Assembly (NCBI GenBank): GCA_002731275.1
Contig: PCBK01000052.1
Span: 474,724-538,723 of the forward strand
Reading direction: 5' to 3'
Origin: Deltaproteobacteria bacterium
GTDB taxonomy: Bacteria > Myxococcota_C > UBA6777
Length of the DNA: 64,000 nt
Shown here: positions 4,105 to 28,600 of the stretch, in pieces
Numbering within the stretch: the first letter of the stretch is position 1
Layout of the letters: each line of letters begins with the position of its first letter
The notes under the pieces: model-generated
What the model saw: only the letters and a program-made list of their open reading frames with translations
The model's database searches: none
What the model was told of the DNA's origin: nothing
Position numbers and translations under genes: made by a program

Positions 4105-6843
4105 TCAGTCAAATTCGACCCTCCGAATGCGATGATTGGAATAGTCAACGAAGTAAAGTGTGTCACCCACAACAAGAACCCCTCCGACTTCACCATCCAT
4201 ACGACTTTGGAGAGCAAGACCATCTTTGTATCCATCCACACCACTCCCGACTAAGGAGTTCACGAAACCTTGTGTGATATCCACCAAACGAATCCGTTTG
4301 TTTCCACGATCGACAACAAAGATAAAAAGACCTGTTTTTCCTTTAAAGGTCGAAGTCATAAAACAACTTCCGACAGTATGATACCGTGCAGAGGGAAGAG
4401 GGGTCATATCTCTGTAATCAGGATTTGAATCACCAGAGATAAGCCCTGCACTTCCACCACTTTTTGAAATCCGAAAAAGTCCATGTCCTCCAGAAAAGAA
4501 TAATTTTGAAGTAGAAGATTCCCAAGCGAGTCCTACAGGAGCCGTTTGTCCCGTCATGTTTACATGAGTAGATACGACACCTGAAGAGGTAATCTTTCGA
4601 ATGGAATGGTTTGCGGAGTCAGCGACATACACATCTCCAGTGTTCTTATCCACAGCAACATAAGAAAGCTCCATGCTGAAGCTCGCCTGATTGCCAGCTC
4701 CGTCTTGGTTTCCTTCTTGACCATCTCCGGCCAATGTCGAAACAACACCCGCAGGCGTGATCTTACGGATGCGACGATTCCCTCTATCAACAACATACAA
4801 ATTGTCACTTCGATCAAATGCCAGTCCATACGGATATGAAAACTGTGCTTGTGCTGCGCTTCCATCTTTGAAACCGGAAACACCAGTCCCTGCATATGTC
4901 GTGACATTGCCAGCAGTGTCGATCTTGCGGATCCGATGGCCACCATACTCCGACACGTAGATGTTTCCTTTAGAGTCAGCTGCGATCCCAACGGGATTAT
5001 CAAACTGAGCCTGTAATCTCGCTCCGTTTTGCCCTCCAGCAACACCTGTCCCTGCAAAGACCATCACACAGCCTTCATCCACACGACCATCACAGTCGTT
5101 GTCCTTCGCGTCACAAGCTTCGGCCTTGGGGGTCACCTCACCCACACACGCACCTGAGAATGAACCGCTCACACAGGCTTGTTGACCCCCTGCACAGGTC
5201 CCCTTCCCAAGGGTCCCTGCGGCACCCGTGTAACAAGCCTTTGTCAACAACTCATCGACACTCCCGTCACAATCATCATCCTTGTTGTTACACGTCTCCG
5301 TCGCAGGGAGCACCTGTCCCGTACAATTGATCCAGTTCCCTGCGTTACACGTCTCTGTTCCGCCCTTACAAATCCCTTTCCCTGATGTCCCAGAAGGCCC
5401 ACTGTAACAAGATCGCGTCAAAGATTCATCCACACTCCCATCACAATCATTGTCGCGGCCATCACAGGTCTCCGTCGCAGGAAGCACCTGACCAAAACAC
5501 GTCCCCCACGCGCCAGCACGACACGTCTCCACTCCACCTCTACAAATTCCTTTGTTCGATGTCCCAGAAGGTCCACTGTAACAAGGTCGTGTCAATGACT
5601 CATCGACGCTACCGTCACAATCATCATCTTTATTGTTGCATGTCTCTGTCCCTGGTCCAATCTCACCAGAACACGCCCCCCACTGCCCTGCTCCGCTACA
5701 TGTCTGTGTTCCCTTTTGACAAACACCTGTGTCCGTCTTACCACAGCTCTGTTTCGTCCCAGGTGAACAAGCACAACCTTCGTCCGTCTGACCATCACAG
5801 TCGTTGTCTAGCTTGTCACAGGTCTCTGTCGCAGGTACCACCTCACCAACACAAGTCCCCCAAGCACCGGATGCACAAGTCTGTGTCCCAACGCGACAGA
5901 TCCCGACATTCTCTTGTTGTTTGGTACCACCAAAGCAGGATTTGGTGAGGGATTCATCGACCTGTCCGTCACAATCATCATCTTTATTGTTACACGTCTC
6001 CACCGCCGGAAGGACTTCTCCGGCACACGCCGACCACTGCCCCGCAGTACACGTCTGGGAACCACTCTTGCAGTTTCCTTTGTCGGCAGTCCCTGATGCA
6101 CCTGTGTAACAGGTCTTGGTGAGGGATTCATCGATGCTCCCGTCACAGTTGTTGTCCAGGTTGTCACAGATCTCCGTCTTTGGCTTGGCCTCAGACGCAC
6201 ATGCCGACCACTTCCCGGATGCACACGTTTGTGTACCCGATAGACAAAGACCCACATTCTCCGTTCCAGCAGGGCCTGTGTAACAAGAGCGGCTGACCTC
6301 TTCATCGACTTTACCATCGCAGTCATCGTCTTGATCGTTGCATTCCTCTGTTTGTGGTGTGGTCGGCTGCAAACACCGAGACCAGATCGCGCAGCCCACT
6401 TCCACGTAACAAAACTGTGTCCCTCCCTGACAAGTGCCCGTACAATTTTCCCCTTTATCATCACATCCTGTCGTGTTGGAAGGATAACAAGAGCGCTTCT
6501 CTCCAGGCGTACACTCCGGCTTGCAAGTCTTTTTGTCCGTTGTCTGTGTGTCTGGTTGGGTGGGTTCTGTGCTCTTGTTGTCGACGTTCCCCTGGCCATC
6601 GACGACCTTTCCGTCCGCAAACTCCGTGTAGGAGCGCTCTGTTCCCTGCCCTGCGTCGGTGTTCTTTTCGCTATCGCTCCACTCGACAAAGCCTTTGGGT
6701 ACACACCAATTGTTGAGACAGATCATTTGTTCGGAGCAGGTCACGTCAGGACCACACGGATGTGAATCTCCCACAGTGATACACGCGACAAACAGGCAAG
6801 AGAGCAGACATACCAACAGGAATCCCTTCTTCGTCCCCATCAT
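4105..6843 (-). CDS. MopE-motif and NHL-repeat lipoprotein
   Basis: A 912-residue exported lipoprotein. The N-terminus has a short basic stretch, a hydrophobic core and a lipobox ending LFVAC (Cys about residue 20). A low-complexity Thr/Asp/Lys linker follows. Next come eight copies of the Cys/Asp-rich MopE-type motif (pattern C-N-x-K-D-D-D-C-D-G-x-V-D-E), each paired with a CYTGP...GxQTC...W.xC module, over about residues 105-590. The last 320 residues are NHL repeats (for example GNIYVSEYGGHRIRKID) sufficient for one six-bladed propeller. The MopE motif is annotated as a putative metal-binding motif (PF11617); its DxDxDG-like acid spacing would also suit calcium, which is inference. Two in-frame ATGs open the gene; the first has GAGG five bases upstream. 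It is a paralogue of 38605-42078 and shares the Cys-rich part with 43121-46393. Confidence 0.88.
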   Translation of the reverse strand: MMGTKKGFLLVCLLSCLFVACITVGDSHPCGPDVTCSEQMICLNNWCVPKGFVEWSDSEKNTDAGQGTERSYTEFADGKVVDGQGNVDNKSTEPTQPDTQTTDKKTCKPECTPGEKRSCYPSNTTGCDDKGENCTGTCQGGTQFCYVEVGCAIWSRCLQPTTPQTEECNDQDDDCDGKVDEEVSRSCYTGPAGTENVGLCLSGTQTCASGKWSACASEAKPKTEICDNLDNNCDGSIDESLTKTCYTGASGTADKGNCKSGSQTCTAGQWSACAGEVLPAVETCNNKDDDCDGQVDESLTKSCFGGTKQQENVGICRVGTQTCASGAWGTCVGEVVPATETCDKLDNDCDGQTDEGCACSPGTKQSCGKTDTGVCQKGTQTCSGAGQWGACSGEIGPGTETCNNKDDDCDGSVDESLTRPCYSGPSGTSNKGICRGGVETCRAGAWGTCFGQVLPATETCDGRDNDCDGSVDESLTRSCYSGPSGTSGKGICKGGTETCNAGNWINCTGQVLPATETCNNKDDDCDGSVDELLTKACYTGAAGTLGKGTCAGGQQACVSGSFSGACVGEVTPKAEACDAKDNDCDGRVDEGCVMVFAGTGVAGGQNGARLQAQFDNPVGIAADSKGNIYVSEYGGHRIRKIDTAGNVTTYAGTGVSGFKDGSAAQAQFSYPYGLAFDRSDNLYVVDRGNRRIRKITPAGVVSTLAGDGQEGNQDGAGNQASFSMELSYVAVDKNTGDVYVADSANHSIRKITSSGVVSTHVNMTGQTAPVGLAWESSTSKLFFSGGHGLFRISKSGGSAGLISGDSNPDYRDMTPLPSARYHTVGSCFMTSTFKGKTGLFIFVVDRGNKRIRLVDITQGFVNSLVGSGVDGYKDGLALQSRMDGEVGGVLVVGDTLYFVDYSNHRIRRVEFD

Positions 6844-8173: not shown

Positions 8174-10420
8174 ATGCAACGCTGGATGCCTCAGACATTC
8201 CGAACGTATTGTCAGCGCGCCCTCTTTGGTGCGTTCTCTGTGTTGATGTTAAGTGGTTGTGTCCCAACATTCCAGGGATTACGCCCCATCACTAAAAAAG
8301 AATTGATGCCCAAAAAGCGCTCCAGAAACAAGGCCGAGATCCTGTTTCTGCAAGACTACCGCAAGCATCGATATGCCCAAGTTGGCGAGTCCCGTGGCGG
8401 GACAACATTCTGGCGTGTGTACAAACGCATCCGCGTCAATAACCGAAAAGGCCTGACCGCTGCGACACAAACCCTCGGCGGCGGCACACTCAACAAACTC
8501 GAAGTCCGCACAGCTTGCCCTGACGGGCGTGTCTCACGCATGGACCTCGACGATGTCCAGCAAGTTACAAAGTCGACGACATCGAGTAGCGTTTGGTCCT
8601 TCACCCGCAAATCCTACAAATTTACAGCGCCCGGTGTAAGTGTCGGCTGTATCGTCGACTTCTTCTGGGAAATGGAGCTCTCAGGTCAGCGCAATCCAAA
8701 GTGGCGCATCCTCCAGCGCTACCCGGTCAAAAAAGCCAAGTACACCTTTGAGTACGGCAGCGGCGCAGTCTACCGCGCACGTCTCGCCAACATGGAGAGT
8801 GTCTGGATTCGTCTCGCCAAACGCATCAAAGGCGCAGACTCCATCCCCAAAAAACTCAACGTCAAAGAGCAAGAGCGACGTGTTCGCCTTCGCCACGACC
8901 AAGAGAACCGTATGATCTCCCTTGAGCTTACGGACATCCCACCAGCCTTTTCGCCACGTGGATTCAAAAAGCAAGTCGTCTCTCGACTTTTGCCTCGCAA
9001 GTTTTATCTCCCCGCGATGGCTGTCGTCGATGTGATACGTATCGATAGCATCTTCAGCGTCGATATGTACCTCGCGTGGAGCAACGTCGATCGAGCGCTC
9101 ACTGGCCGAAGCTACAAACAAGACGAAAACGAAGAGCTGAAAGAAAAAGACAGCCTCGCGGAGATCGCCAAAAAAATCACAGCGAAGTCCGCTGGCCGTA
9201 ACGGCAAACTGTGGGCACTTTACAATCACCTGCGCCAACGTATGACCCTCTCCAACACACGTAGCGCAAGAATTGGCTCACGCAATAAATTGCGCAGAGT
9301 GTACGACCTCGCGATCGGGACGAGCTACGAAATCAACATGCTCTATATCCTGATGCTCCGTAGCCTCGGAATCCGAGCCTATCCAGCCATGCTCTCCAAG
9401 TACAACCGCACCTACCAAAATGAAGCCCCCGCATACACCTGGAACTGGGTCGCGACCTACATCGCCCCCAAAAAAGAAGGGAACTGGGCAGGCCTCAAAC
9501 AAGAGCGACAAAACGCCAAAAAATTCCTCCAAGAAAAAGGGAAAAATTACGAAGGTGGACGTATCGTCAAAGTTGGCGTTGTCGTCGACCCCTCACAAAA
9601 AACACTCCCCTTCGGCGTCTTGCCTCCCAAATACAGCAAAACCTGGGCTTTCGTTCTCGACTCCATGGGTGGTCGCTTCTTTGAGACCAAAGAACTCACA
9701 GCGAAACAAAACACACAGATGGTCAAGCTCGACATCAATGTCGCCGCTGATGGTAAGCTCTCAGGTACAGCGAACTTCTCCTTTACAGGACAAAAAGCCT
9801 TCTCACGTCGTAGCCGCCTCCAATCCATGGCACGTCACACGTGGCTGAAGAGAGGATACGGCGCGACGATCAAGCGAGCATGTGGTGTGCACAGTGAACT
9901 ATCACTGAGCAAGCAACCCAACCTCGACCTGGTCAAACTCCGCAACCCATTTGCGTACGCGTATACATTCAAGACACCTTCTTGTGTCCCCACGAGCAAA
10001 CGTTACATCCTGCTCAGACCTGTTCCCACATGGTTGTTCTCACTGCCATCTTTGCGCAAAAAGCACCGCCTCGCGGCGATCGACTTTGGTACACCTCGAC
10101 ACCATGTATACGAAGTACACTACACCTTCCCCAAAGGATACAAGCTCAAAACAAGCCTCAAAAGCGGCACGTTGACAGGCCCATCCTTGCAAGGTGCGTT
10201 CAAAAGCACACCGACCGCAAATGGTTTGCGTATCAAAGTCAGCTTCACCATTGAAAAGCGTATGCTCCCAGCCAATATGTACTCCAAAGTCAAAGATTTC
10301 TACGCAAAGCTAGGCAAGTTGACGTCCCAAAAGACGTTCCTCATGAAGTCCAACGCGACCGCGTCATTGCCCCCCTCTGGGACGAAAGTGGCTTCCAACT
10401 TCAACGCCACAAGCCGATAA
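8174..10420 (+). CDS. DUF3857/transglutaminase-like lipoprotein with lost catalytic residues
   Basis: A 748-residue lipoprotein: signal sequence ending in the lipobox MLSGC (Cys about residue 29), then a region resembling DUF3857 (about 60-290), then a transglutaminase-fold region (about 330-500) and a C-terminal beta-rich part. Aligned by eye with the next gene, the catalytic Cys is replaced by Ser384 (GTSYEIN instead of GDCKAKA) and the catalytic His by Trp425 (WNWVATY instead of FNHVINY), while an acidic residue in VLDS is kept. The domain is therefore probably a pseudoenzyme that binds rather than cuts or crosslinks peptide. The start ATG has GGGAG five to nine bases upstream. The downstream gene begins 13 bases after the stop, so both are likely co-transcribed and may act as partners at the inner or outer membrane. 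Confidence 0.8.
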   Translation: MQRWMPQTFRTYCQRALFGAFSVLMLSGCVPTFQGLRPITKKELMPKKRSRNKAEILFLQDYRKHRYAQVGESRGGTTFWRVYKRIRVNNRKGLTAATQTLGGGTLNKLEVRTACPDGRVSRMDLDDVQQVTKSTTSSSVWSFTRKSYKFTAPGVSVGCIVDFFWEMELSGQRNPKWRILQRYPVKKAKYTFEYGSGAVYRARLANMESVWIRLAKRIKGADSIPKKLNVKEQERRVRLRHDQENRMISLELTDIPPAFSPRGFKKQVVSRLLPRKFYLPAMAVVDVIRIDSIFSVDMYLAWSNVDRALTGRSYKQDENEELKEKDSLAEIAKKITAKSAGRNGKLWALYNHLRQRMTLSNTRSARIGSRNKLRRVYDLAIGTSYEINMLYILMLRSLGIRAYPAMLSKYNRTYQNEAPAYTWNWVATYIAPKKEGNWAGLKQERQNAKKFLQEKGKNYEGGRIVKVGVVVDPSQKTLPFGVLPPKYSKTWAFVLDSMGGRFFETKELTAKQNTQMVKLDINVAADGKLSGTANFSFTGQKAFSRRSRLQSMARHTWLKRGYGATIKRACGVHSELSLSKQPNLDLVKLRNPFAYAYTFKTPSCVPTSKRYILLRPVPTWLFSLPSLRKKHRLAAIDFGTPRHHVYEVHYTFPKGYKLKTSLKSGTLTGPSLQGAFKSTPTANGLRIKVSFTIEKRMLPANMYSKVKDFYAKLGKLTSQKTFLMKSNATASLPPSGTKVASNFNATSR

Positions 10421-10433
10421 GGAGACGAATTTT

Positions 10434-13103
10434 ATGAAACGCATACACACTTCGTTGATGGCAGGCTTGTTTTCGGCGCTTTTGGTCGCTGGCTGCGCAA
10501 GCACTCCCAAAGAATTTGTCATCAAAAAATCGCCCACAAGTCCAAGCAGCAAGGACTTTCCCAAAGCCGATCTCGTGACACTCCTTCGGAAAGTCAACGT
10601 CGTCATCTCCAATGATGGTTACAGCTTCAAGGAAGACACACACATCCAATACAAAGCACTCACCGCACGTGGCGCCAAACGACTCCGCCGCATCGGTGTG
10701 CGATACAGCAACAACCGACAGCTCAAGGACATCCAGGCACGACTCGTCCGCCCCAACGGGTGGATCTCCCGTGGACAGATGTTTACAGATGTTCCCAACC
10801 TTTACGGCCGCCAATACTTCAGCGCAAGTCGCTGGAGAGGAACAGGCTTCAGCGCTGTTGTCCCTGGCTCCGTCCTGGAATATCGTTACACTCGCACAGG
10901 AAAGAGTTGGTTTATCCCCTCTCACTACATCCAACGCACTATGCCTGTGATCAAAACGGTCTACTCCATCTCCGTCCCAGACGGCGTTGGCTTCCGCCAC
11001 AAAGTGTACAGTGGTCCGAGCTTTGCCGCGAGCAAAGTCAAACACAGCAAGAACGCCTCATCAGGTCGCACCATCCACACATGGACCGCTGAGAACGTCC
11101 CCGCTGTCGAGATCGAGCCCGGTATGCCCGCATGGATCAACAGCGTCGCGCGCCTCTCCGTGATCAGCCAACGCCTCGCAATGGGCGAATACAAAGGCAG
11201 CGGTCGTGACTGGAACAGTATCGCGAACTTCTACAAAATCCTCGTCGGAAAACGCAACCAACCCACACCTTTCATCACGACGTTCACTAAGAAGCTGATC
11301 AAAGGTGCCTCCTCCAACGATGACAAGATCCGCAAAATCTACGACTTCGTCAGAAAAGAGATCCGTTACGTCTTTGTTGGCTTTGGACTCGGTGGATGGC
11401 AGCCACAAGCTGCAGAGTTTACACTGAAACAACGATACGGCGACTGTAAAGCAAAGGCCACCCTGCTTCAGGCGATGTTGCGCGCTGTCGGCATCCGTTC
11501 ACACCAGGTGCTCGTCCGCACTCGACACGCAGGGAAACTCGACAGAACCTTCCCCGTCGATAGCTTTAACCACGTCATCAACTACATCCCCTCTCTCAAC
11601 AAGGGAACCTTCGTCGATGCAACGACAAGTGACAACCGCCTGGAAGTCCTTCGACACGATGACCAAGGCGCGTCAGCGCTGATCGTCAGCCCCAAGAAGT
11701 CACGCTTCACAACGATCCCTGCGTTCACTCCCGATCACAACCTCAAGCACACAAAAATTACCGTTGTGCGCGGAAAAGAGAACGTCACAGGAACCATTAA
11801 ACTTCGACTTGGTGGCAACTTTCGAGTACGAGTGGATGGCCTCCTGGAGCAGGGGCGCCTGAAAAAACCAAAGGCACGTAACATGTGGGCCGCCAGAACA
11901 CTCGGTCGACTCAAGCTCAAAGCGCTGCTCAAAGGGTTTAAAGTCACATCTGTCGACTTTTCTGGGCAAAATGAAAAATACCTGAGCACGATGATCAAAT
12001 TTAAGGCAGCGTCGCTGCAAGGAACACTGCGCAAAGGTAAAACGATCTTCTTCAACGCGGGTAAATTTCTCCAATCCAGTCCCTCTTCCAAGTACCTCAA
12101 GAAGAGAAAACAAAACCCCATCGTTTGGAATCAAAAAGACAGCCACGTCAAAGAGATCGACTTCAAGGGGTGGTACTTTGTCGACGGACCCAAGTCGTTT
12201 AAGACGAGCAACAAGCACGTCAACTACTCCCTGAAGGCCATGCACAAAGGAAATCACGTCGAGCTCGGTAGCAAGCTCAAGTACAACTCGGACTACATCG
12301 GCCTCAAGGATCACGAAGTCTTCCGTAAAACATTCGAAGATATCCACAAACACGAGTACAAGCTGCTTGTCTTGAGCACCGTCCCCCCCGGCGGTAACTT
12401 CAAGAAAATCCCTCCCTCCAAGCCCAAAAACATCAGCGTCACCTACCCCAAAAAATGGCGCGGTGTCAGCCTGGGTATCGACGCAATGAGAGGTGGCGAA
12501 GACAAGGGTGTTGTCGGTTGGACGTATGTCTCTTCGAGCAAAGTCAATTTGCAGCTCGCGAACAAAGTCGCGTCCCACCTCAAAGCACAAGGGAAACGCG
12601 GATACAAAGTCGCGATGAGTCGCAAAGATGACACAGATGTCGCGTCCAAAAAACGCGTCTCGACGTTGCGTCGCAGCAAACTCTTGCTCCAAATCGACAT
12701 GGGTAACGGTCTGCAAGAGTGGAAAAAGAACAAGGCCTACGTCACCCAAGACGGAAAAAAACGCTGGTTCAACGACGGTGTCGCAGGATTCCAGATCGTT
12801 TGGTCCAAAGACAACAAGAAGAGTAAACAAACCAAGAAGTGGGCAACATGTCTCGGAAAATCACTCAAACGTGCAGGCTACGTCGTACGCAAAGCACGTA
12901 AAGGTGAGAGCATGACCTCTTCCTCTTTGGGGATCCGCCCTGCAACTGACGAAGATCCAGTCCTCTCAGGAAAAACACCTGCAGTTCGCGTTGTCGCGGG
13001 ATACCTCACGCACCGCAAAGAGGCCAAAGCCTTCGCCTCTAGCCAACACATCTTCTTTGCCAAGGCCATCGAAGCCGCGCTCGTCTGCTACCAATCCAAA
13101 TAA
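10434..13103 (+). CDS. DUF3857/transglutaminase lipoprotein with a degenerate amidase_3-like C-terminus
   Basis: An 889-residue lipoprotein (lipobox LVAGC, Cys about residue 22). A DUF3857-like region (about 60-300) precedes a transglutaminase-like core with an intact triad: Cys338 in GDCKAKATLL, His380 in FNHVINY, Asp395 in FVDAT. The last 210 residues (about 676-889) follow the fold pattern of N-acetylmuramoyl-L-alanine amidase (amidase_3): GIDAMRGGEDKGVVG, then SSKVNLQLANKV, YKVAMSRKDDTDV, LLLQIDMGN and TPAVRVVAGYLTH. Each expected zinc or catalytic position is changed (His to Arg686, Glu to Ser701, His to Asp755, Glu to Val854), so it may bind but not hydrolyse peptidoglycan. The start ATG has AAGGAG eight to thirteen bases upstream. 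The amidase assignment is by motif reading only. Confidence 0.78.
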   Translation: MKRIHTSLMAGLFSALLVAGCASTPKEFVIKKSPTSPSSKDFPKADLVTLLRKVNVVISNDGYSFKEDTHIQYKALTARGAKRLRRIGVRYSNNRQLKDIQARLVRPNGWISRGQMFTDVPNLYGRQYFSASRWRGTGFSAVVPGSVLEYRYTRTGKSWFIPSHYIQRTMPVIKTVYSISVPDGVGFRHKVYSGPSFAASKVKHSKNASSGRTIHTWTAENVPAVEIEPGMPAWINSVARLSVISQRLAMGEYKGSGRDWNSIANFYKILVGKRNQPTPFITTFTKKLIKGASSNDDKIRKIYDFVRKEIRYVFVGFGLGGWQPQAAEFTLKQRYGDCKAKATLLQAMLRAVGIRSHQVLVRTRHAGKLDRTFPVDSFNHVINYIPSLNKGTFVDATTSDNRLEVLRHDDQGASALIVSPKKSRFTTIPAFTPDHNLKHTKITVVRGKENVTGTIKLRLGGNFRVRVDGLLEQGRLKKPKARNMWAARTLGRLKLKALLKGFKVTSVDFSGQNEKYLSTMIKFKAASLQGTLRKGKTIFFNAGKFLQSSPSSKYLKKRKQNPIVWNQKDSHVKEIDFKGWYFVDGPKSFKTSNKHVNYSLKAMHKGNHVELGSKLKYNSDYIGLKDHEVFRKTFEDIHKHEYKLLVLSTVPPGGNFKKIPPSKPKNISVTYPKKWRGVSLGIDAMRGGEDKGVVGWTYVSSSKVNLQLANKVASHLKAQGKRGYKVAMSRKDDTDVASKKRVSTLRRSKLLLQIDMGNGLQEWKKNKAYVTQDGKKRWFNDGVAGFQIVWSKDNKKSKQTKKWATCLGKSLKRAGYVVRKARKGESMTSSSLGIRPATDEDPVLSGKTPAVRVVAGYLTHRKEAKAFASSQHIFFAKAIEAALVCYQSK

Positions 13104-13266
13104 GCCCCCTCCCCCTCTCCTCTCTGCCCCCACAAAACCAAACGCAACGACTTTTGCTTTTTTGCCGAAAAGTGTATAACTACATTAGGTATACATGCGC
13201 CATTTGGGATGGCTTTGGACCCTCTCAGCCCAAAAATGGCTTCCGCAAAGAAGAAGGATTGTTTTG

Positions 13267-15534
13267 ATGCGCTGGATGATTCACAGCTTGATGATTGTTT
13301 TGTTTTGTGTTGTTGGTCCCTTACAAGCCAACGCATTTGTTCACAAATACGCCCCAACTGGACGGATCTACCACTGGCAACGCAGCAAGCTTCCAGTCAA
13401 GTTCCACCTCAGCACACAAATGCCCACAGATGTCACCGCGCCCGATCTGCTCTCAGAGGTCAAGAGCTCGATCCAAACGTGGAACGCTGTCACCTGCTCG
13501 CTCCAGCCGCTCTTGGAGCTCGCGAACTCCAGCTCCACTGAGACCAAGAAGGGACAAAATGGCACCAACCTGATTCTCTTTATCACCGATCCCAACGGAT
13601 GGGCAGGCTATGCGACAACCGCCATCGCCATCACCGAGCACTGGTACAACCTGCAAACAGGCGAGATCGTAGAAGCTGACCTCTCCCTCAACGGTTGGAA
13701 CACACAGAACGTCAAGTGGGGCAAAGGTGTCTCCACAGCCTACGACATTCAAAACACCATCACACACGAGCTTGGCCACGTCCTCGGATTAGGACACTCC
13801 ACCAACGCCAGCGCTGCGATGTTCGCGAGCGCCAACCCAGGCGAGACCAATAAACGAACGCTCCACCAGGACGACATCTCAGGGATTTGTAACATTTACC
13901 CCAAGGTTCCCTGCGAAGAAGGAAAAGACCAAGGTTCTGGTTCCTTCTGCTACAATGGGCGTATCACATCGGTCTGCTCGGCCAATCGTATTGTGTGTTC
14001 TCCGTGTAGTGAGAGCAACAACAGCACGGATTGCCCTGGCGAAAAGAACTTCTGTCTGGGTTTTGGTGGTGGTTTCTTTTGTGGGTATGATTGCTCGGGC
14101 ACCCAGACATGTCCGAGCGGATGGACATGTCACCCTGTCCAGGGTGCAGATCAAAAAATCATCGGGCACAACTGCCTACCAGACACCAAGCAATGCCCCA
14201 CGACGAGCGCTTTTTGTTGCATCACAGATGACGACTGCTTGAGTCCCTACAAGTGCGTCAAAGGTTCATGTGTCCGCGACGGGACACAGTGCATCAAGGC
14301 AGACCAACCCTGCTCACCAAGTGGTACATGTTGCAGCGGCCTGATCTGCGCAAATGACGGGACAGGCGCCAAGTGCCGGACCCAATGTGATCCACTCGCC
14401 CCACAATGTCCAGGCACGCTGCGCTGTGGAGTCGTCTCAGGCACCACGTCTGGCGCCTGTATTCCTCCAAACAACGGAGGTCTCGAAGGGACTGCTTGTA
14501 GCGCGAGTAAACCTTGTGAACACCAACTTCAATGCCATCCCACAGAGAAGATCTGCTATCTACTCTGTAAGCCCGGTACGACCAACACCTGCCCGACGGA
14601 TTATCGCTGTGTCACACAAAATACATCTCCCCCCATCGGGTTGTGTGAACGTGTAAGCTCAGGTCAATCTTGTACGACACAAGCCGACTGCGCTTCTGGG
14701 CAGTTGTGCAAGGGTGGTAATTGCGCTTCGTGTACTGACAGCGTTGAATGTCCCCCGCAATACAAATGCAGTGGAGGATTGTGCCTCGCTCCATGTGGCT
14801 CAGGTGGGGTTTGTCAATCCAGACACACCTGTATCAACAATCTCTGCACCCCAAGTACGACCTGTGTATACGACAAAGATTGTCCCTCTGGTCGCGCTTG
14901 TAATGGCGGGACATGTGGCCCACCTGTCGGAAAGTCCTGTGTACAAAGCACCGATTGTGTGACTGGACAGATCTGCAAAGCAGGTCAATGTGTCGATGCC
15001 TGCAACAACGCCTGTGTTGGTGGAGAAGTGTGCATCAATGGACAATGTGCGCCAAGCTCGTGCAGTACGGACGCACAGTGTGGACAAGGTCTGATCTGCC
15101 ATGACAACCAGTGTAAAAAGCAAGACTTTGCTTGTGGCGGAAACCCCTGCACCTCGGGACAAGTCTGTGTGAACGGTCGATGTCTCGCAAAGATCGGTTA
15201 CTCCTGTACAGGAAACGAGAGCTGCGCGAGTGGATTCTGCGTTGCAGATGGCGAACTTAAGATGTGCTCACAACAATGCAGTCCAACAGATCCCAAGTCG
15301 TGTCCAAGTACACCAAGTAGCTATTTTTGTACGACCTTCCCCAATGTAGGGCTGGCCTGTTGGCCAGCAGATCGGACCGTCTGCACAAACGGGACGTGTA
15401 AACCCAAGCTCCCCCCCAAAGGAACAGGCTGTAGCTGTAACAGCGTTCACCCTCAACCTGAGACCGCGTTGATGTGTATGTTGGTTCTGCTCGCGCTTGG
15501 TCTCGTACGGCGTAAACACAGGCGTGGACACTGA
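13267..15534 (+). CDS. matrixin-type zinc metalloprotease with Cys-rich repeats and MYXO-CTERM-like anchor
   Basis: A 755-residue exported protein. A signal peptide (about residues 1-24, ending ANA) is followed by a metzincin domain with the zinc site HELGHVLGLGH (about residues 166-176) and a Met-turn in SAAMFA. The remaining 500 residues are Cys-rich short repeats (patterns C-x-x-x-x-D-C, G-x-x-C-x-x-G-x-C) like those seen in myxobacterial surface proteins. The C-terminus has GCSC, about 20 residues later a hydrophobic helix (MCMLVLLALGLV) and then RRKHRR, matching the MYXO-CTERM sorting pattern. Function: secreted or surface-anchored peptidase; substrate unknown. I chose ATG 13267, which follows AAGAAGGA and starts the signal peptide, over ATG 13195, which would add 24 residues without a good ribosome site. 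Confidence 0.85.
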   Translation: MRWMIHSLMIVLFCVVGPLQANAFVHKYAPTGRIYHWQRSKLPVKFHLSTQMPTDVTAPDLLSEVKSSIQTWNAVTCSLQPLLELANSSSTETKKGQNGTNLILFITDPNGWAGYATTAIAITEHWYNLQTGEIVEADLSLNGWNTQNVKWGKGVSTAYDIQNTITHELGHVLGLGHSTNASAAMFASANPGETNKRTLHQDDISGICNIYPKVPCEEGKDQGSGSFCYNGRITSVCSANRIVCSPCSESNNSTDCPGEKNFCLGFGGGFFCGYDCSGTQTCPSGWTCHPVQGADQKIIGHNCLPDTKQCPTTSAFCCITDDDCLSPYKCVKGSCVRDGTQCIKADQPCSPSGTCCSGLICANDGTGAKCRTQCDPLAPQCPGTLRCGVVSGTTSGACIPPNNGGLEGTACSASKPCEHQLQCHPTEKICYLLCKPGTTNTCPTDYRCVTQNTSPPIGLCERVSSGQSCTTQADCASGQLCKGGNCASCTDSVECPPQYKCSGGLCLAPCGSGGVCQSRHTCINNLCTPSTTCVYDKDCPSGRACNGGTCGPPVGKSCVQSTDCVTGQICKAGQCVDACNNACVGGEVCINGQCAPSSCSTDAQCGQGLICHDNQCKKQDFACGGNPCTSGQVCVNGRCLAKIGYSCTGNESCASGFCVADGELKMCSQQCSPTDPKSCPSTPSSYFCTTFPNVGLACWPADRTVCTNGTCKPKLPPKGTGCSCNSVHPQPETALMCMLVLLALGLVRRKHRRGH

Positions 15535-19688: not shown

Positions 19689-22600
19689 TCACTCGCTCCT
19701 CTTCCTCTTCTCGATCAATGTAGGCTCCTCACCGAATAACTTCCTGTACAACGCCATGTGACGACGCCTCATCGATGATGTTCCCGACTCTTCTTTGATC
19801 GCCTGAAGCAGATCTTGTTTGGCCTGCGTCTTCTTCTTCATTTTGTGGTAGATCTGTGCGCGGATCACCAAAAATCGAGGCCAACGAGGTCGCTCCTTGG
19901 CTGCCTTGTTGATCGCACGTAGTGCCTTGTCGAGCAGCTTCCCTTCCTTCATGAGCGCTTGCGCATACAAAGCATACGCAAAATACCACTCAGGCTGCAT
20001 ACGCAATCTCGACGAAAACACACCCCACGCCTTGTCAGCAGCTCCCAATCTCACATACACCCGCGCAAGGGTCGTGAAAAAACGGCCTTCATTGGTATAA
20101 GGCTCCTTCTTCAGCGCACGACGCAACCAGATCTTCGCATCCCTTGGCTTGCCGAGCTTCATCAACACAATCCCCACCATCCCCATCACCTCCACATCGC
20201 CAGGGATTGTACGCTGAAGCATACGCAAGATCTTCAGCGCTTCCTTGCTCTTACCAAGTTTAAACAAACACTCAGCGATCCCCAAGTGGCTGATCTTTTT
20301 GTGCATGAAGGTCACCATCTGCTTGCGATCTGCTGCCGCAAGGCGAAACTGTCGCAACGCTTCGTGATACTGATGATGTTCGTACAACATGTTCGCATAA
20401 AACACACGAAAGGACGACAAACCCAGCTTAAATTGGAATTTGCCTTTGTACGAACGCATTCGTGTACGTTCGGCGTAGTGATCCCAGAGCTTGCCCTTCA
20501 TAAAACGAAGCAATTGACGACGGTAGGTAAACTGCAACCGATGCGCCAACACCCGCAAACGATACACCCCACGACGATCCCCGAGCAGCGCCAACTGAAT
20601 CGCCATCGCGACAGCCTCTTTTGTTGGCAACATACGGGACGCGAGCTGCAACGACTTGCGCAAACTCTCCTTCTTGATCCCCTTTACATCGTCTTGTAAC
20701 AACAAATGGGATAATCCCGCGATCGCATACCAGCGCACGATCCGATCGCGATCCTTTCGCAATGTCTGTAGCGCTCCGACATCGTTCCTTGTGAGCAAGC
20801 CACGCCACTCACCATAGCGATAGGTGTCCCAACGCACCAAACGCCGCATCACCGCGCGCCGGAACTTTGGTTCTCTCGCAAAAGAGCCGCGTTTGGGTTT
20901 GATCAAGATGTCAAAGAGCCGCTTTCTCCCCTGACCATCTCCCCACATCGCCAGCGTGTAGGCTGCGAGCACACCCACTCCGGGGAAAGGCAACAGCTTG
21001 GCCAAAAATCGCCTCGTCAGCTTCGCGTCGTATCTCCGAATGTAGTAACCATTGGATAACATCAACAGCTTCTTCCAGCTCGATACAGTCGGAGAGAAAA
21101 CTCTCTTACGATGTCTCCACAAGCTCATCATCCAACGCACCTGAAACGCCTCCTTGTGCAGGAAGGTATACCCAGACGCACGACGAGTACGAGATGTCGC
21201 ATAGACCGAATACGCTCTGATGTTCTGTGGCAGGATCGCGTCCAACGTCTTCAGATCCTTGAGCAGGTCACTCCCAGATGAGAGGTAAGCATACGCCCAA
21301 CGCAACCGCTGCGCCTTTGACAGGGCTTTGTTGCGACACAAAGACAAAAAGTATTTGCGAAAAGAGGCATCGCGAATGTCCACAAATAAGCCGGGCAAGC
21401 TCGCATAAAACATCCGATGTTTCTTGTACTTTTTGCCCAACTGCACGAGCGTCCCCATCGCCTTGTCGTTGTCCACACGGAGCGCCAAACTCGACACAAA
21501 GAACTTCTCAACGCCACCAAACCAGCCGAGCCACAAACGATCGCGTCCCCAAACAGGCTCGGTGTTGGCTTTGACGATAAAGTGGACACCCTTGTAGTTG
21601 TAAATCTGCGCAGGGAATTGCATCGACCAACGCAAACGTCCAGTGCGCAGTGACAACACCGAAAGACTACCAAACGATCCCATCACCGCAACAGAGCGCC
21701 CCGACGGAGAGACAACAGGACGCACCGGACCAAAGTCCGCGAGATGAGCCCTCCACTGCAACTTTCCGTCCTTCGGATGGTAACTCGACAGATACCCATC
21801 CTCTCCCCAAAAGAGCAGATGCGTTCCCCAAATGACAGGTGTCGAACGATATTGATATCTCGAAGAGTAGCCGATCTCCCACTGCCGATGATACCGTCCA
21901 ACCCCTCCAGGCAGGCGTTTCTTCCAGAGCATTTTCCCACGATCGACCTGCAACACATGCATCATGTCGTTGTCGTTGACCACGTAAAGACGCGCGCCCT
22001 TTTTCGCCAATGAGTAGATCGTTGAAGGCATTCTTCGCGACCACACCTTCTTGCCCTTTGGATCGACCTTCAACAACCAACGTCCTAACACTGAGACGAC
22101 AAACCCACCGTCCACTGCGAGCTGAGGAGCGAGTGGCTTCTCGTCAAAAAGCCAACCGCCAAAACCTCCAGCGAGAGGATACTCCCACTGGGTTTTTCCA
22201 GTCGCCAACGACAACGCCTTGTACGTCCTCCCCCTGTAAGTGAGCAGTCCATGTCCAAATTGCAGCCTCCCAAGCGCAAAGTCACCCTTGCTTTTGTAAT
22301 GCCACAACAACTTTCCGGTCTTCGCTGAGAACTTCAAGATGTGCAACATCTCGTGGAAGCCAGCTCCCCAATCCCTGACACGCTCAAAGCGGGAGGAAAA
22401 CGCCGCAACATACAACGCCTGTTTGTGGATCTTCATATCGGCGATCCAGTAAAACTGTCTGTAAAAAGGAGCGGTCTTAAAGCGGTTTTGGAACGACGAA
22501 GAGACTGGGAGTTCTTTGCGGTAAGGTAGGACAGGCAACGCGTATGACCATCGGACCTTTCCACTTTGTTGTCCCAACGCAAACAGACGACCACGACAAT

Positions 22601-25600
22601 CGTTCGTATAGAGTCGCTTACCAAATGATACGACGTGACGCTCGCAACGTATCACCTTGTCATCTTGTTTGCACCGCTCACCACCTTTGCGCTTACTAGG
22701 CGTGCAAAAAGACGGAATATACGCAGACCAGCGAAGTCGTCCGAGGCGCGTTCCACGTCGAGAAGAGACCTTCACGACCGCCTTACGCTGTTTGGAGCGT
22801 AAACGTCGGCGTAATTGCGTCATACGTTTGCGCGAGACGTGTTGATGAAGTGTAGGTAAACCAGCGAGCAATTCGGTGAATTGACGCGCGTCATCTTCGC
22901 GGCCTACACGCAAGGAGAGCTTCGCGAGGGTGTACAGGAGTTTGGGTTCTTTTGGGTTCTTTGGCCACGCCTTGCGAAGCATGAACAACGCGAGCTGTGG
23001 ATGTCCTTTTTTCATCAGCTCTTTGGCCAACGAGAAGCGGCTCTTCCAGTCCGTCAACCCACCAGGTCGAAGAGCCTCTCCATCGCACAAACGTCCGAGC
23101 CCTTGCATGTGCCAAAAATGGCATAGGTTTCGGTAGCTCCCAATGCGTGCAGTGTTCCCAGAGCGCCAAAGCGCCTGCCAGTAACAATACTCCGCGCCGA
23201 TCGTATACCCAGCCTCTCGCAGGATGCGCGCAGCCCGCTGTGCGCCCCAATGACTCGCATAGTTGTTCCACACGAGTTCAGCGAGCAAGGTGCGGCGCTT
23301 TTTCGCTCTCCCCATCCCCTTATAAATCTTGGCAAGAATCCCGATATACTGGACTTTGTGAGTCAACAGGTAATGTAGGGAGTGACGACTCGTCCCTCTC
23401 TCGAAGACCTTCAACGCCGCCGCAAAATCCTTCTTTGCAATGAGGAAACGGAGTGCTCGACGGATTTGATAGTCAGAGCGATAGGACGAAGCCTTGAGAG
23501 TCGATGTGTACATGTGCAGCGCTTGCTGTGTCATCCCCGCGAGCACGACACGATCGCCGACAGTAAATCCACAGCGAAACTTGGGGTACTGAGAAAAGAG
23601 CTTCAAACAACCTGCAAAGTGTTTTTTCCAATAAGCGAGCGCCATCTTTTTGCGACCGAGATGGACGTAAAAATCCCCCAACCGCAACGCCATGTCCTTG
23701 GGTTTATTTGTACTGTGTTTGTAAAGCTTGTTGAGCAACGCGATCGCCTCTTTGTACTTCCCGTACGTCTCATATGAGAACAACAGCGCGCTGAGTAAGG
23801 AGTGCTCATCAGGTCTACGTTGCAGGATATGTACGAGGATCGCCTGGTACTTGTCGTGATCCCCCTTCACCTCGTATGCAAAGCGCAGTAACGAGAGCAG
23901 GTGGAGTTGGTCTGGAGTGGCCTTTAAGCGTTTTTGCCAGGAGGCAATAAACCTCGACAAGCGACCACTTTGTGACAACAGCCTCATCATCTCTTTGACC
24001 ATCGCTCGGTAACGATAGCTGGAGCGGCCACTTTGGTTCACGAGACGAACACCAGAGAGTGCCTGCCGCAAGAAAAATTCGATCCTGGCGCTGTCCTGAC
24101 TTGGCATCAAGAATTTCGCCATCTCAAGCGCCTTGTACGCACGCCCTAACCCGTATCTCTGGTAGTAACGCATTGGGTATTGGGACTTCTTGCGCTTGAT
24201 GTAGAGGCGATAGTGGACAATCGCCTGTCTGATCTGCAGACGATCGCGGTAAGACTTGGCGAGCAATTGATCGGCGACACCATCTTTATGTTGGCGGGAC
24301 AGTCGCAACAACACAGCGTGACGACGTCTGACATCACCAGCTCGCTCAAGTAGATAGACCATCCTCCACAAGATCACCTTGCGCTGCTGTTTTTTACCGG
24401 AGAGCAAACGACGATACAACGCGAGCGCCTGCCTGACATTCCCCTTTGCATCTTCCAACGAGGCGAGATATTGCAGTAATTCTCGTCTATTTGAGTATGG
24501 TTTCTTCTTGGTGAGATCGCGCAACATCCCGAGCAACGCGGTCAAAGAAGACATCTTCTTGTTCGTCGCCCAGTCGAGCGAATAGCCTGCGAGGACATAA
24601 TACGTGCACAACTCCTTCACGGAGGAACGCACTGCGCTGCTTTGCTTTTGAAGCAAGAGATACAACAAACGCGGCGAATGTCCCGCTTCGCGATAAAGTG
24701 AGAAGAGCGCACGAAGCTGGTCGCGCACACGTGCGAGCCGTCCGTTGAGTTGAAAACGACGTCGCAGCCCTCGTCGACGCCATCGACGAGAAAAACGAGA
24801 GAAACGAGAAAGACGTCTGCTGTACCGTCGACGGAACCGAGTCGAGCTTGCTTTGCGTTTGAGGAAAGCGTGTCTACGCATCTTCTCTTGCAAGACACGC
24901 CATCCCTTGTCGAGCAACCGCCCGTAATACTTTTGCGCCATCCTGTCGTTACCGTAACGCTTGTAGGCGCGGGCGAGTAAGAGGACGAAGAATTTGTCCT
25001 TCCGAAGCGCGCTGCCTCCAACCCATCGACAACGTTCCAGCCACCAGATCGCGCGCCTGTGGTTGCCCCAAGCGAGATAACGAGCGCCCAAACGTCGGAC
25101 GAGGATCTTCCAGTACCCACTCTGAAGATCCTTCAAGCTCATGAGTTGTTGTTCCAAAAAGCGACTAAATGAGCGTGGCGGTACAGTCGTGCCCCGGTTC
25201 GAGAAGAAGTTGAGGACTCTGCCCAGGTACATCATTTTGCGGGCGCGGTCTTTTCGACGTTTGAGTTGTTGTCGAATCAACAGCTTCGCGATGTCGTAGC
25301 GTCCAATCAAGAAGAGCTCACGTGTTTTTCTCTGTAGAAAATAGCGATCACGGTAGTGGTGCTTTGTCGAAAGTCCCCACAGGGCAGGGAGATACTGAAG
25401 TGATGCTTCAGCTCCTTTTGACTCGTGAAGGACGACGTATGCATCGATCAGCGCGCGCCTTGTCTTGGAAGGCACTTCGTTGAGCGAAGCGTTTAACAGG
25501 ACCTCTTCGCTGTGTTGTAGGAGCTTGACACGCTGCGCCTCACTGAGAAGTGGCCACAACATCGACAAGATCTTCTCGCGACGTTTTTTGATAGAGGAGA

Positions 25601-28600
25601 TGGGGTTGGTGTACCGCATCCTCGCTTTAGGACGGGTCCACTCCTTCCACAAAACAGCGCGCGCCTTCTCTCTCATGTTCATGACGCGGTATAAATTCAC
25701 CATTTTCCTGATCAAAAAGAGTCTGTCACCGCCGGTCCAGTAGCGATGGGCCCACTGCAACATCTCCAGCGCGAGCGCGTACTCTTTTCTCTTCTCCAGC
25801 AAAGTCAAAATGTAGTGATAGCTACCAGAGATACGGGAGTGGTTGTGTAAAAACTCCTTGAGCATGTAGCGCAAGCGTGAACGATCCCCCATCGCCAACA
25901 AGACCTTGATCTTTGAGGCGAGATAACGCCCTTTCTGTCCGGGCCGACCTCGTTCGAGCTTTGCGTACAGACGCAAGGCTTTGCTGTGTTGCCCCTGCTC
26001 GCGATATGTCCGCGCCAAAAGTTGAATCCAGTACGCGTTACGTGGTTCGAGTTGGTGCGCCCGTTCGAGCAGCGCCTGTAGTGGTTTAAACCATTTTTTC
26101 TTCTCGTAGTGTTCCGCGACGAGTTTCATCAGAGAGCGCTGGTCTTGTGCGTTTGGGTCTTCGAGGCGCATGGCAAGACGTCGCTCCCACTGGGCACGTA
26201 GACCTTGCTTTTGATAGAGCTTCATCAACTCCAGAAAAGCGAGACGACGGCGCGCGAGCAACTTACTCGCGTAATAACGGCGTCTACGACGTAGATAATA
26301 CGGAAGTTTGCGTTTTTTTCGTTTGACTTTGCGCTTCACGCGCTTCTTTTTTTTGCGGATGGGGACATGTGTCTCCCTCCACAAAATCGACTCATAGATC
26401 CCGATCGCAGCGTCGCTTTGCCCGATGTCGCGATAGAGTCCGGCGAGCCGAAAACGAATGGTAGGTGTGTCGGGCTCCAACTCCAAGAACAACTCGTATG
26501 CGCGGATCGCCTCCTTCTTGAGGCGGTTTTTGTAGAAGAGCGTCGCAACTTTTCTCAGGATACGCAAAGAGTTGGGGTTTTCGTTGAGCAGGCCGAGCAA
26601 GATCTTTCGTGCGTTGCTCTTGTCGTTGACCTCAAGATACAGCCGAGCGAGCCGGACCTGGTCTTGCGCGGACGGATTCATCGACTCTTCGATCATTTTG
26701 CGAAAGTAGATAATCGCGCGCTTTGTGTTCCCCTGTTCCAGCGCCGTCTCGGCGAGCGTTCTGTACACCTGAGACTTTTGATCGACGGTCGTTGCGGCTT
26801 TCAGGTAGGCGACGCGGTACTCCTTCATCCGTCCTTGTCTTTTGTACAACTGCGCCAACGCCCGAAAATACGCGAGCTCACGAGGGTACGTATCCGCGAG
26901 ACTTTGCAGCCGACTTTCGAGCAGCTTCATCCCACGTTCGCGCTCTTTGGTCTCAAATTCACCGAGAACATCCATGATCTGCATCACGGAGTCGTAGATC
27001 GTTCGCCCGTCTTTGGTGCGCTTGAGGACAAACTGGTAGATCGCGAGCGCCTTTCGGAGCTTGCGCAGCCGCTGCAAGATGCTCGCGAGCGAGAGGCGAT
27101 AACCAAACGCGTGGGGGCGTAGACGCACGGCCTCTTCGTAAGATGAAACCGCGAGCTTGAGGCGTCCAGACTTACGATAAATGCGCGCAAGCTCTGCGTG
27201 GGCAGAGGCGTCATCGGGGTTAAGCTCGACGACTTTCCGTCCGTAGCGAATCGCTTCTTTGTAATCGCCGAGCTTGATGCTGTAGTTATAGATTCTGCGG
27301 TAGTAATTACGCCGTCCGACTTTGTGGGCTTTCACGAGCCGCAGCAGCAAGCGACGAGCTTCCGTCCAGCGACGCCCACGGGAAGCGAGCTGCTCAAGTG
27401 TGAGTAATGCGTCGACATCCTGGGGATCGTGCACGAGGATCTTCTGAAACAGGTTTTTGGCTTGCAGGTAACGACGTCGGCCACGGCGTTGTGAACGCCA
27501 CAACTCATACTCTCCAAGAAAGCGAAGAGCTTCGATGGTCTGTTCGCGTTGTTTATTGGTGCGTGGGTTGTCGTAGATCTTGCGTTTGTAACGTGCAGGC
27601 AACCGGTACAATGTCCCCTGTGCCTGGTACAGATCGAAGAGTTGGTGGATAGAGCGCTTTTTTCGAGAGCGTAGACGTGCTGTTCTGTAGATTTTCCACC
27701 AGATATCGATGGCTTGTTTGCGCAGCTTGGGGGTCAGATCGGATTCGTTTTGAAGGAGTTGATAGATCTCACCGAGTTGCAGTAAGTAGCCGAGCTGTTT
27801 CGGTTGTCGCTTGACGGCGTTGTGAAAGGCCTTGTGTGCCTTCCAGAGCATATCGTGCTCGCGGTAGATTTGGCCGAGTGCAGCGTAGGCTTGATGTGCA
27901 GGCAAACCACTGCGCAGGAGTCCCTGCCAGATCTTGAGCGCCCTCTTTGTGTTCCCCTGTTGGTAATAGTATTGGCCGAGCACTTGGCGGTGAGAGACCA
28001 CGCGAGGTTCGAGTCGGATCAAACGCTTATAGAGCTTGATCGCTTCCTTATTCATCCGGCGACGTCGATAAAACTGTGCGAGGCGTGTGAGGATCTCAGA
28101 GTGTCGGGAGAATGAGCGCGCGATACGTGCCATTTCGGCGAGCGCCTCTTTGGGTTTCCCGACGCGAGAGAGCATCTCGGCGAAGGCGAGGCGGTGTCTG
28201 GGCTCTGTCGGTTCAATACGGATGAGCGATTTGTAGGCGATGATCGCGTCTTTGACGTGATTGTTGACCTCCAGGAGGGTGATGTACTTGCGCCATGTTC
28301 GGACATCTCGTCGATTGGCCTTCAGTGCACGTTTGTAGTACACCTTGGCTTCTTTGTCCTTCCCCATCTCATCGAGGAGTCGGGCGAGCATTGCCAGCTC
28401 TGTGTGATGTTTACGCTTGCGCTTCTTGAGGTGCGCAGCAAGTTCACTGAGCTTTCCGTTTTCGCGGTGAATTTGCAGGATACGTCCATCGAGCTCACGG
28501 CGCAGCCAATGCCCTCTTTGGGTGTAGCTGATAGCTTTTCGATAAGCCGCGACAGCCTTTCGCCATGAGCCTTTCAATTCATAGACGCTCCCAAGTTGCC

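Follow-up and report, generated by a model that had tools for sequence, protein, structure and literature searches.

What is a catalytically dead amidase doing at the end of a transglutaminase-like lipoprotein? The question is raised by an open reading frame (ORF 10434-13103, on the plus strand, as are all features of its product given below) in the 64,000-nucleotide stretch of DNA analyzed here (the window), which comes from an uncultured bacterium. The answer favored, with moderate confidence, is that the C-terminal 235 residues, a non-catalytic Amidase_3 domain, anchor an envelope lipoprotein by binding the cell wall.

The ORF, its translation, and Pfam matches predict an 889-residue lipoprotein in which a DUF3857 and transglutaminase-like core is followed by a dead Amidase_3 domain. 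A signal peptide with the lipobox LVAGC and lipidated Cys21 (10434-10496) was predicted by eye, and the orthologues in four related genomes (G001-G004) likewise have lipobox-like motifs. DUF3857 (PF12969; residues 65-225, 10626-11108, Pfam E 2.7e-19) precedes Transglut_core (PF01841; residues 283-368, 11280-11537, Pfam E 3.3e-11). In Lol sorting, an Asp after the lipidated Cys bears on which membrane receives the protein; none is present here, so that an outer membrane location is likely for this predicted surface lipoprotein. Pfam finds no OmpA domain (PF00691, no match up to E 10) and no Peptidase M23 (LytM) domain in the protein. Within the C-terminal segment its sole match is Amidase_3, with none to Amidase_2/PGRP.

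Family and fold of the C-terminal domain

A sequence-only reading of this locus held that the C-terminal 210 residues follow the segment order of amidase_3, and the profile match bears this out far beyond chance. PF01520 is matched with E 2e-14 by the segment alone and E 9e-13 by the whole protein; the score is 54.4 bits against a 27-bit gathering cut-off, and profile positions 3-171 of 174 are covered. The domain proper spans residues 682-882 (12477-13079), as placed by Pfam, an AlphaFold2 (AF2) model, and structure matches. The NCBIfam models closest to the protein, CwlD and AmiC/AmiA, all fall far below their cut-offs, and hhalign gives 97.5% for the dead domain against the active amidases of the same bacterial family.

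The AF2 model of residues 661-889 (pLDDT 85, pTM 0.85) was built from an alignment of 24 sequences of active amidases, viral ones included. Modeling from the window sequence alone, without an alignment, gave pLDDT 38 and was unusable, and the fold assignment is therefore one of homology plus modeling rather than of the model alone. Compared with solved structures, the alignment-guided model scores Z 24.8 to 4rn7 and 24.7 to LytH, with rmsd of 1.9 and 1.4, respectively. The top matches are all Amidase_3 enzymes, and Z falls from 18.7 to 11.7 outside that family. Homology and the alignment-guided model thus show a domain that descends from Amidase_3 and keeps its predicted fold, and the profile and structure comparison proposed earlier comes out in favor of an Amidase_3 origin. 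A whole-protein scan of genome contigs returned a single distant Omnitrophota amidase, and the matches in a viral structure library were active-type phage amidases only. Surface charge, tried as a hint of wall binding, was uninformative, every domain compared being strongly basic.

Loss of the active site in a lineage-specific subfamily

The window domain shares its sequence family, predicted fold, and motif order with the Amidase_3 amidases (CwlV, AmiA/B/C, Rv3717/Ami1, and CwlD), but all three zinc ligands (His, Glu, and His) and the catalytic Glu are replaced. The four changed residues singled out in the sequence-only reading align exactly with the H/E/H/E that is invariant in 5/5 active amidases of the bacterial family. 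Arg686 (12489-12491) stands at the first zinc-ligand His, Ser701 (12534-12536) at the zinc-ligand Glu, Asp755 (12696-12698) at the second zinc-ligand His, and Val854 (12993-12995) at the catalytic Glu. The family's own active amidases also have about 18 residues between the second His and the catalytic Glu that the window domain lacks. Profile, profile-profile, fold, and ligand evidence therefore agree on a zinc-less Amidase_3 fused to a transglutaminase-like lipoprotein.

The family comparison covers five genomes, the window's own (G000) and G001-G004. Each contains one active-type AMIN amidase with H/E/H/E intact (AMIN was shown for G000) and one standalone protein of ~510-530 aa with a C-terminal dead Amidase_3. 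Retention of zinc ligands in orthologues had been named as a point against a dead domain; the true orthologues carry no such domain, and the standalone paralogues, which have H, A, and D at the first three positions and V or I at the fourth, keep only the first His. Set against the R, S, D, and V of the window, this pattern makes it most likely that loss of the Glu and of the second His preceded the fusion and that the last His went afterwards.

In a tree, the window domain falls into a clade with the standalone domains, apart from the active amidases (100/100), within which the window tail groups with the standalone paralogue of its own genome (93/98). A horizontal origin of the tail was rejected on the strength of this last grouping. 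A profile of the dead subfamily scores more than 320 bits in the five family genomes, whereas none of 188 others exceeds 53 bits, which confines the subfamily to this lineage as far as sampled. Outside the bacterial family, the sampled genomes yielded no relative closer than "same domain," and a search of viral contigs for the dead subfamily found none.

Eighteen residues are invariant in 6/6 dead-subfamily copies and absent from active amidases. They include Asp755, His860 (13011-13013; Asn in active amidases), Cys806 (12849-12851), and Cys885 (13086-13088). The two cysteines, an invariant pair new relative to the Amidase_3 enzymes, may form a disulfide in the dead subfamily, as the alignment suggests. 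Eight of the 18 lie within 6 residues of ancestral active-site positions, a weak, post hoc enrichment (P 0.04) that is given no weight here. For the standalone protein in the close pair G002/G004, dN is 0.02 and dS 0.2 (dN/dS about 0.1). By these sequence measures the dead amidase is a conserved non-enzyme and not a pseudogene. The domain might instead remain an enzyme with a rebuilt active site. Asp755 and His860, both invariant in the subfamily and, in sequence, close to or at positions of the ancestral active site, could for instance form a metal or acid-base site. Such activity is improbable: no Glu replaces the general base, and the window copy has lost even the last ancestral His (now Arg686), which all standalone copies retain.

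Exchange of one tail for another

The order metallophosphatase, DUF3857/transglutaminase-like paralogue, this gene, matrixin-like gene, 15690 homologue, cmk, and rpsA is common to the window and to G001-G004, to the extent covered by the ORF map and the stretches compared. The positional orthologues of ORF 10434-13103 are 29-41% identical to it over residues 11-653, and in 4/4 related genomes they end in thrombospondin-type-3 (TSP3) repeats and an OmpA domain (detected by Pfam in G001 and G004, PF00691 E 5e-24 and 5e-21, and by sequence in G003 and G002). In a tree of the core domain, the window gene groups with those of G001 and G003 (97/96), and G002 and G004 fall outside (100/99). Both neighboring lineages carry OmpA, making it the parsimonious ancestral state.

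The window tail is 57% identical in amino acid sequence to the genome's own standalone dead amidase. DNA similarity to that paralogue begins at base 1963 of the coding sequence (residue 655, window 12396) and continues through a shared TAA stop, whereas protein similarity to the orthologues stops at residues 647-653; the two limits locate the joint to within a few residues. The acquired module, consisting of a linker and the dead Amidase_3, copied from the standalone paralogue and standing in place of TSP3 and OmpA, accordingly spans 12396-13103 by its similarity limits. The module placed earlier at 12459-13103 is real, with a start that needs to be moved slightly upstream. Synteny and trees thus show, in one genome, that the window lineage replaced an OmpA tail with a copy of its lineage-specific dead amidase. 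Several other proteins of the window genome still carry TSP3-OmpA modules, so the species as such retains the OmpA module.

That two genes were joined artificially in the assembly is extremely improbable. The assembly is incomplete, in 200 contigs, with 5.5% estimated contamination, but the joint is internal to a 595-kb contig and flanked on either side by conserved genes, and the two halves of the gene are alike in GC and GC3. Nor can repeat collapse explain the fusion, because the tail is only 57% identical to the sole other copy in the genome.

The fusion was found in one genome among those sampled, and the window copy has lost one ligand more than its donor. Both observations would fit a recent, idle by-product: loss of the OmpA tail and chance capture of one from a paralogue, with no role. 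The copy is old, however, as its divergence from the donor and a dS near saturation indicate, yet its frame is open. All 18 subfamily-specific invariants are kept, and dN between tail and donor lies well below dS (0.36 vs 1.69, rough values). An idle tail is accordingly scarcely to be expected.

What the dead domain may do

Inactive enzymes have repeatedly been turned into binding proteins, and the present one now probably serves to grip the cell wall. The proposed mechanism starts from an Amidase_3 domain stripped of its zinc ligands and its catalytic Glu, with the fold kept in the model, that was copied from the lineage's standalone dead amidase onto a transglutaminase-like lipoprotein, at the site of the sisters' TSP3 and OmpA. 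The remodeled groove would bind peptidoglycan without cutting it. With its lipid anchor in the membrane and its C-terminus on the wall, the lipoprotein would hold its membrane-anchored DUF3857/transglutaminase-like domain at the wall. There the domain, its triad intact, may act as a cysteine hydrolase or transferase on a wall-associated protein or peptide. That the module would place transglutaminase activity on peptidoglycan, as first suggested, is a further inference.

A peptidoglycan-binding groove is most likely because the dead domain stands in for OmpA, and OmpA-type domains are known to bind peptidoglycan via diaminopimelate (PMC8253398). The replacement of one domain by another suggests equal function, and the loss of OmpA at this very site is strong circumstantial evidence, from comparative sequence, for wall anchoring. 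Binding by a zinc-less amidase domain has a parallel in the zinc-less PGRPs, which bind peptidoglycan (PMC8124813). The substitutions could also abolish substrate binding, because the metal in zinc amidases helps hold the substrate.

Alternatively, the dead domain may be a protein-docking or regulatory module whose degenerate groove holds a protein partner, be it an autolysin, an amidase regulator, or some other protein of the envelope. There is precedent in the degenerate LytM proteins EnvC, NlpD, and DipM; the groove of DipM docks autolysins including AmiC (PMC10336132). The donor is a membrane protein encoded beside two Ser/Thr kinases, one with an FHA domain, which fits signaling, and the one active AMIN-amidase of each family genome is a possible partner. 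Docking has no known partner here, however, and the domain replaces OmpA, a peptidoglycan binder, in the same place in the same gene. Wall binding is favored for this last reason, and docking is judged unlikely. The non-catalytic wall-binding module of the sequence-only reading thus gains circumstantial support from four orthologues that end in OmpA at the same place, with protein docking remaining as its rival.

The transglutaminase-like core and its neighbor

Alignment with orthologues and outgroups places the Cys-His-Asp triad at Cys338 (11445-11447), His380 (11571-11573), and Asp395 (11616-11618). The triad is kept in the window protein, G001, and G003, and the transglutaminase-like domain of the window protein is probably active, as judged from these residues. 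The catalytic Cys is replaced by Asp (QQGDDRAKA) in the orthologues of G004 (L006, 1399-3966) and G002 (L007, 949-3516), which keep the His, the Asp, the lipobox, and the OmpA tail. By its sequence, then, the protein is retained in these two genomes without its nucleophile.

Adjacent to ORF 10434-13103 on the plus strand lies a paralogue (8174-10420), a DUF3857/transglutaminase-like lipoprotein identified by a Pfam match just below cut-off, alignment, and synteny. Its catalytic Cys and His have been replaced by Ser and Trp, respectively, and neither catalytic residue survives in the counterparts from three relatives (4/4 genomes examined). A conserved dead transglutaminase thus adjoins a mostly intact one and is a conserved partner gene in the relatives. 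The loss of Cys both in this paralogue and in G002/G004 indicates that catalysis is not universal in this protein pair.

Other DUF3857-transglutaminase proteins (PF12969 and PF01841, often with PF12970, DUF3858) have the same domain order and triad, and their genes are often neighboring pairs, as at the window locus. Those inspected outside the bacterial family have N-terminal TPRs, C-terminal membrane helices, or no extra tail. None of them has a wall-binding tail, which among the proteins inspected is found at the C-terminus only in this bacterial family and in the window is the dead amidase.

The donor and its kinase neighborhood

All five family genomes (5/5) keep the standalone dead amidase as a single-pass membrane protein. 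By eye, its N-terminal part, which has no Pfam match, looks cytoplasmic; a single membrane helix and a middle part follow, and the dead amidase lies outside. In G000, G002, and G003, genes for a Ser/Thr kinase and for a kinase with FHA precede the standalone gene; the kinase and FHA domains were scanned for in G000 and assigned by sequence only in the other genomes. Only the kinase-FHA gene lies beside it in the ORF map of G004, and the G001 contig is too short to tell.

The three-gene cluster of Ser/Thr kinase, kinase with FHA, and outward-facing dead amidase occupies L032 9374-14121, L033 8835-13754, and L034 7223-11897. The adjoining kinase genes point to a wall-linked signaling role for the standalone protein, and its gene content makes the cluster a candidate peptidoglycan-sensing signaling unit. 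More tentatively, the lineage may possess its own class of wall-binding domain made from dead Amidase_3, used as a kinase-linked outward sensor in every genome and swapped in for an OmpA anchor in one genus. The odds are somewhat against so broad a generalization. If it holds, the class would be a bacterial counterpart of the non-catalytic PGRPs.

Relation to known systems

The tail occupies the same position as the OmpA/Pal anchors (PF00691), at the C-terminus of an orthologous lipoprotein, and is proposed to grip the wall in the same way, but the folds are unrelated and the window protein has no OmpA domain. The degenerate LytM regulators (EnvC, NlpD, ActS, and DipM) are alike in being wall-hydrolase domains without metal ligands that are kept for binding, as is proposed here. 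They differ in having the LytM/M23 fold rather than that of Amidase_3, and those studied bind amidases and other autolysins. The non-catalytic PGRPs (PGRP-LC, -LE, and -SA) offer a model of how such a domain could work, a zinc-less amidase fold that binds peptidoglycan; they are animal proteins of an Amidase_2-type fold, and homology is not claimed.

The open-access literature yielded no paper with an Amidase_3-transglutaminase fusion, in keeping with the earlier statement that no named family has it, no described case of a dead Amidase_3 reused as a binder, and nothing relevant on DUF3857 with OmpA. Because the exchange of C-terminal modules took place in a single lipoprotein at one position in the gene, the tails of the orthologues can be set side by side in one assay, and the hypothesis of binding is open to a direct test. 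The conserved dead-amidase protein linked to the kinases likewise emerges as a candidate sensor of peptidoglycan.

Other genes in and beyond the window

Proteins with two Amidase_3 domains occur in two genomes of another bacterial family (L023 1-2319 and L122 305-2425). The first domain looks intact; in the second, the first His is missing and so, by eye, is the catalytic Glu. On sequence grounds this is apparently an independent case of a degenerate Amidase_3, here beside an active one. Within the window, 4105-6843 encodes a secreted protein with eight putative metal-binding motifs of the MopE type (PF11617) followed by NHL repeats. The conserved neighbor of ORF 10434-13103 at 13195-15534 is a matrixin-like metallopeptidase (PF00413). 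Its tail is long and rich in Cys, and its C-terminus, a hydrophobic segment with a basic end, resembles a sorting signal. On the minus strand, 19689-29330 is a 3213-aa ORF in which TPR-like repeats and, towards the C-terminal third, a propeller-like stretch can be seen by eye.
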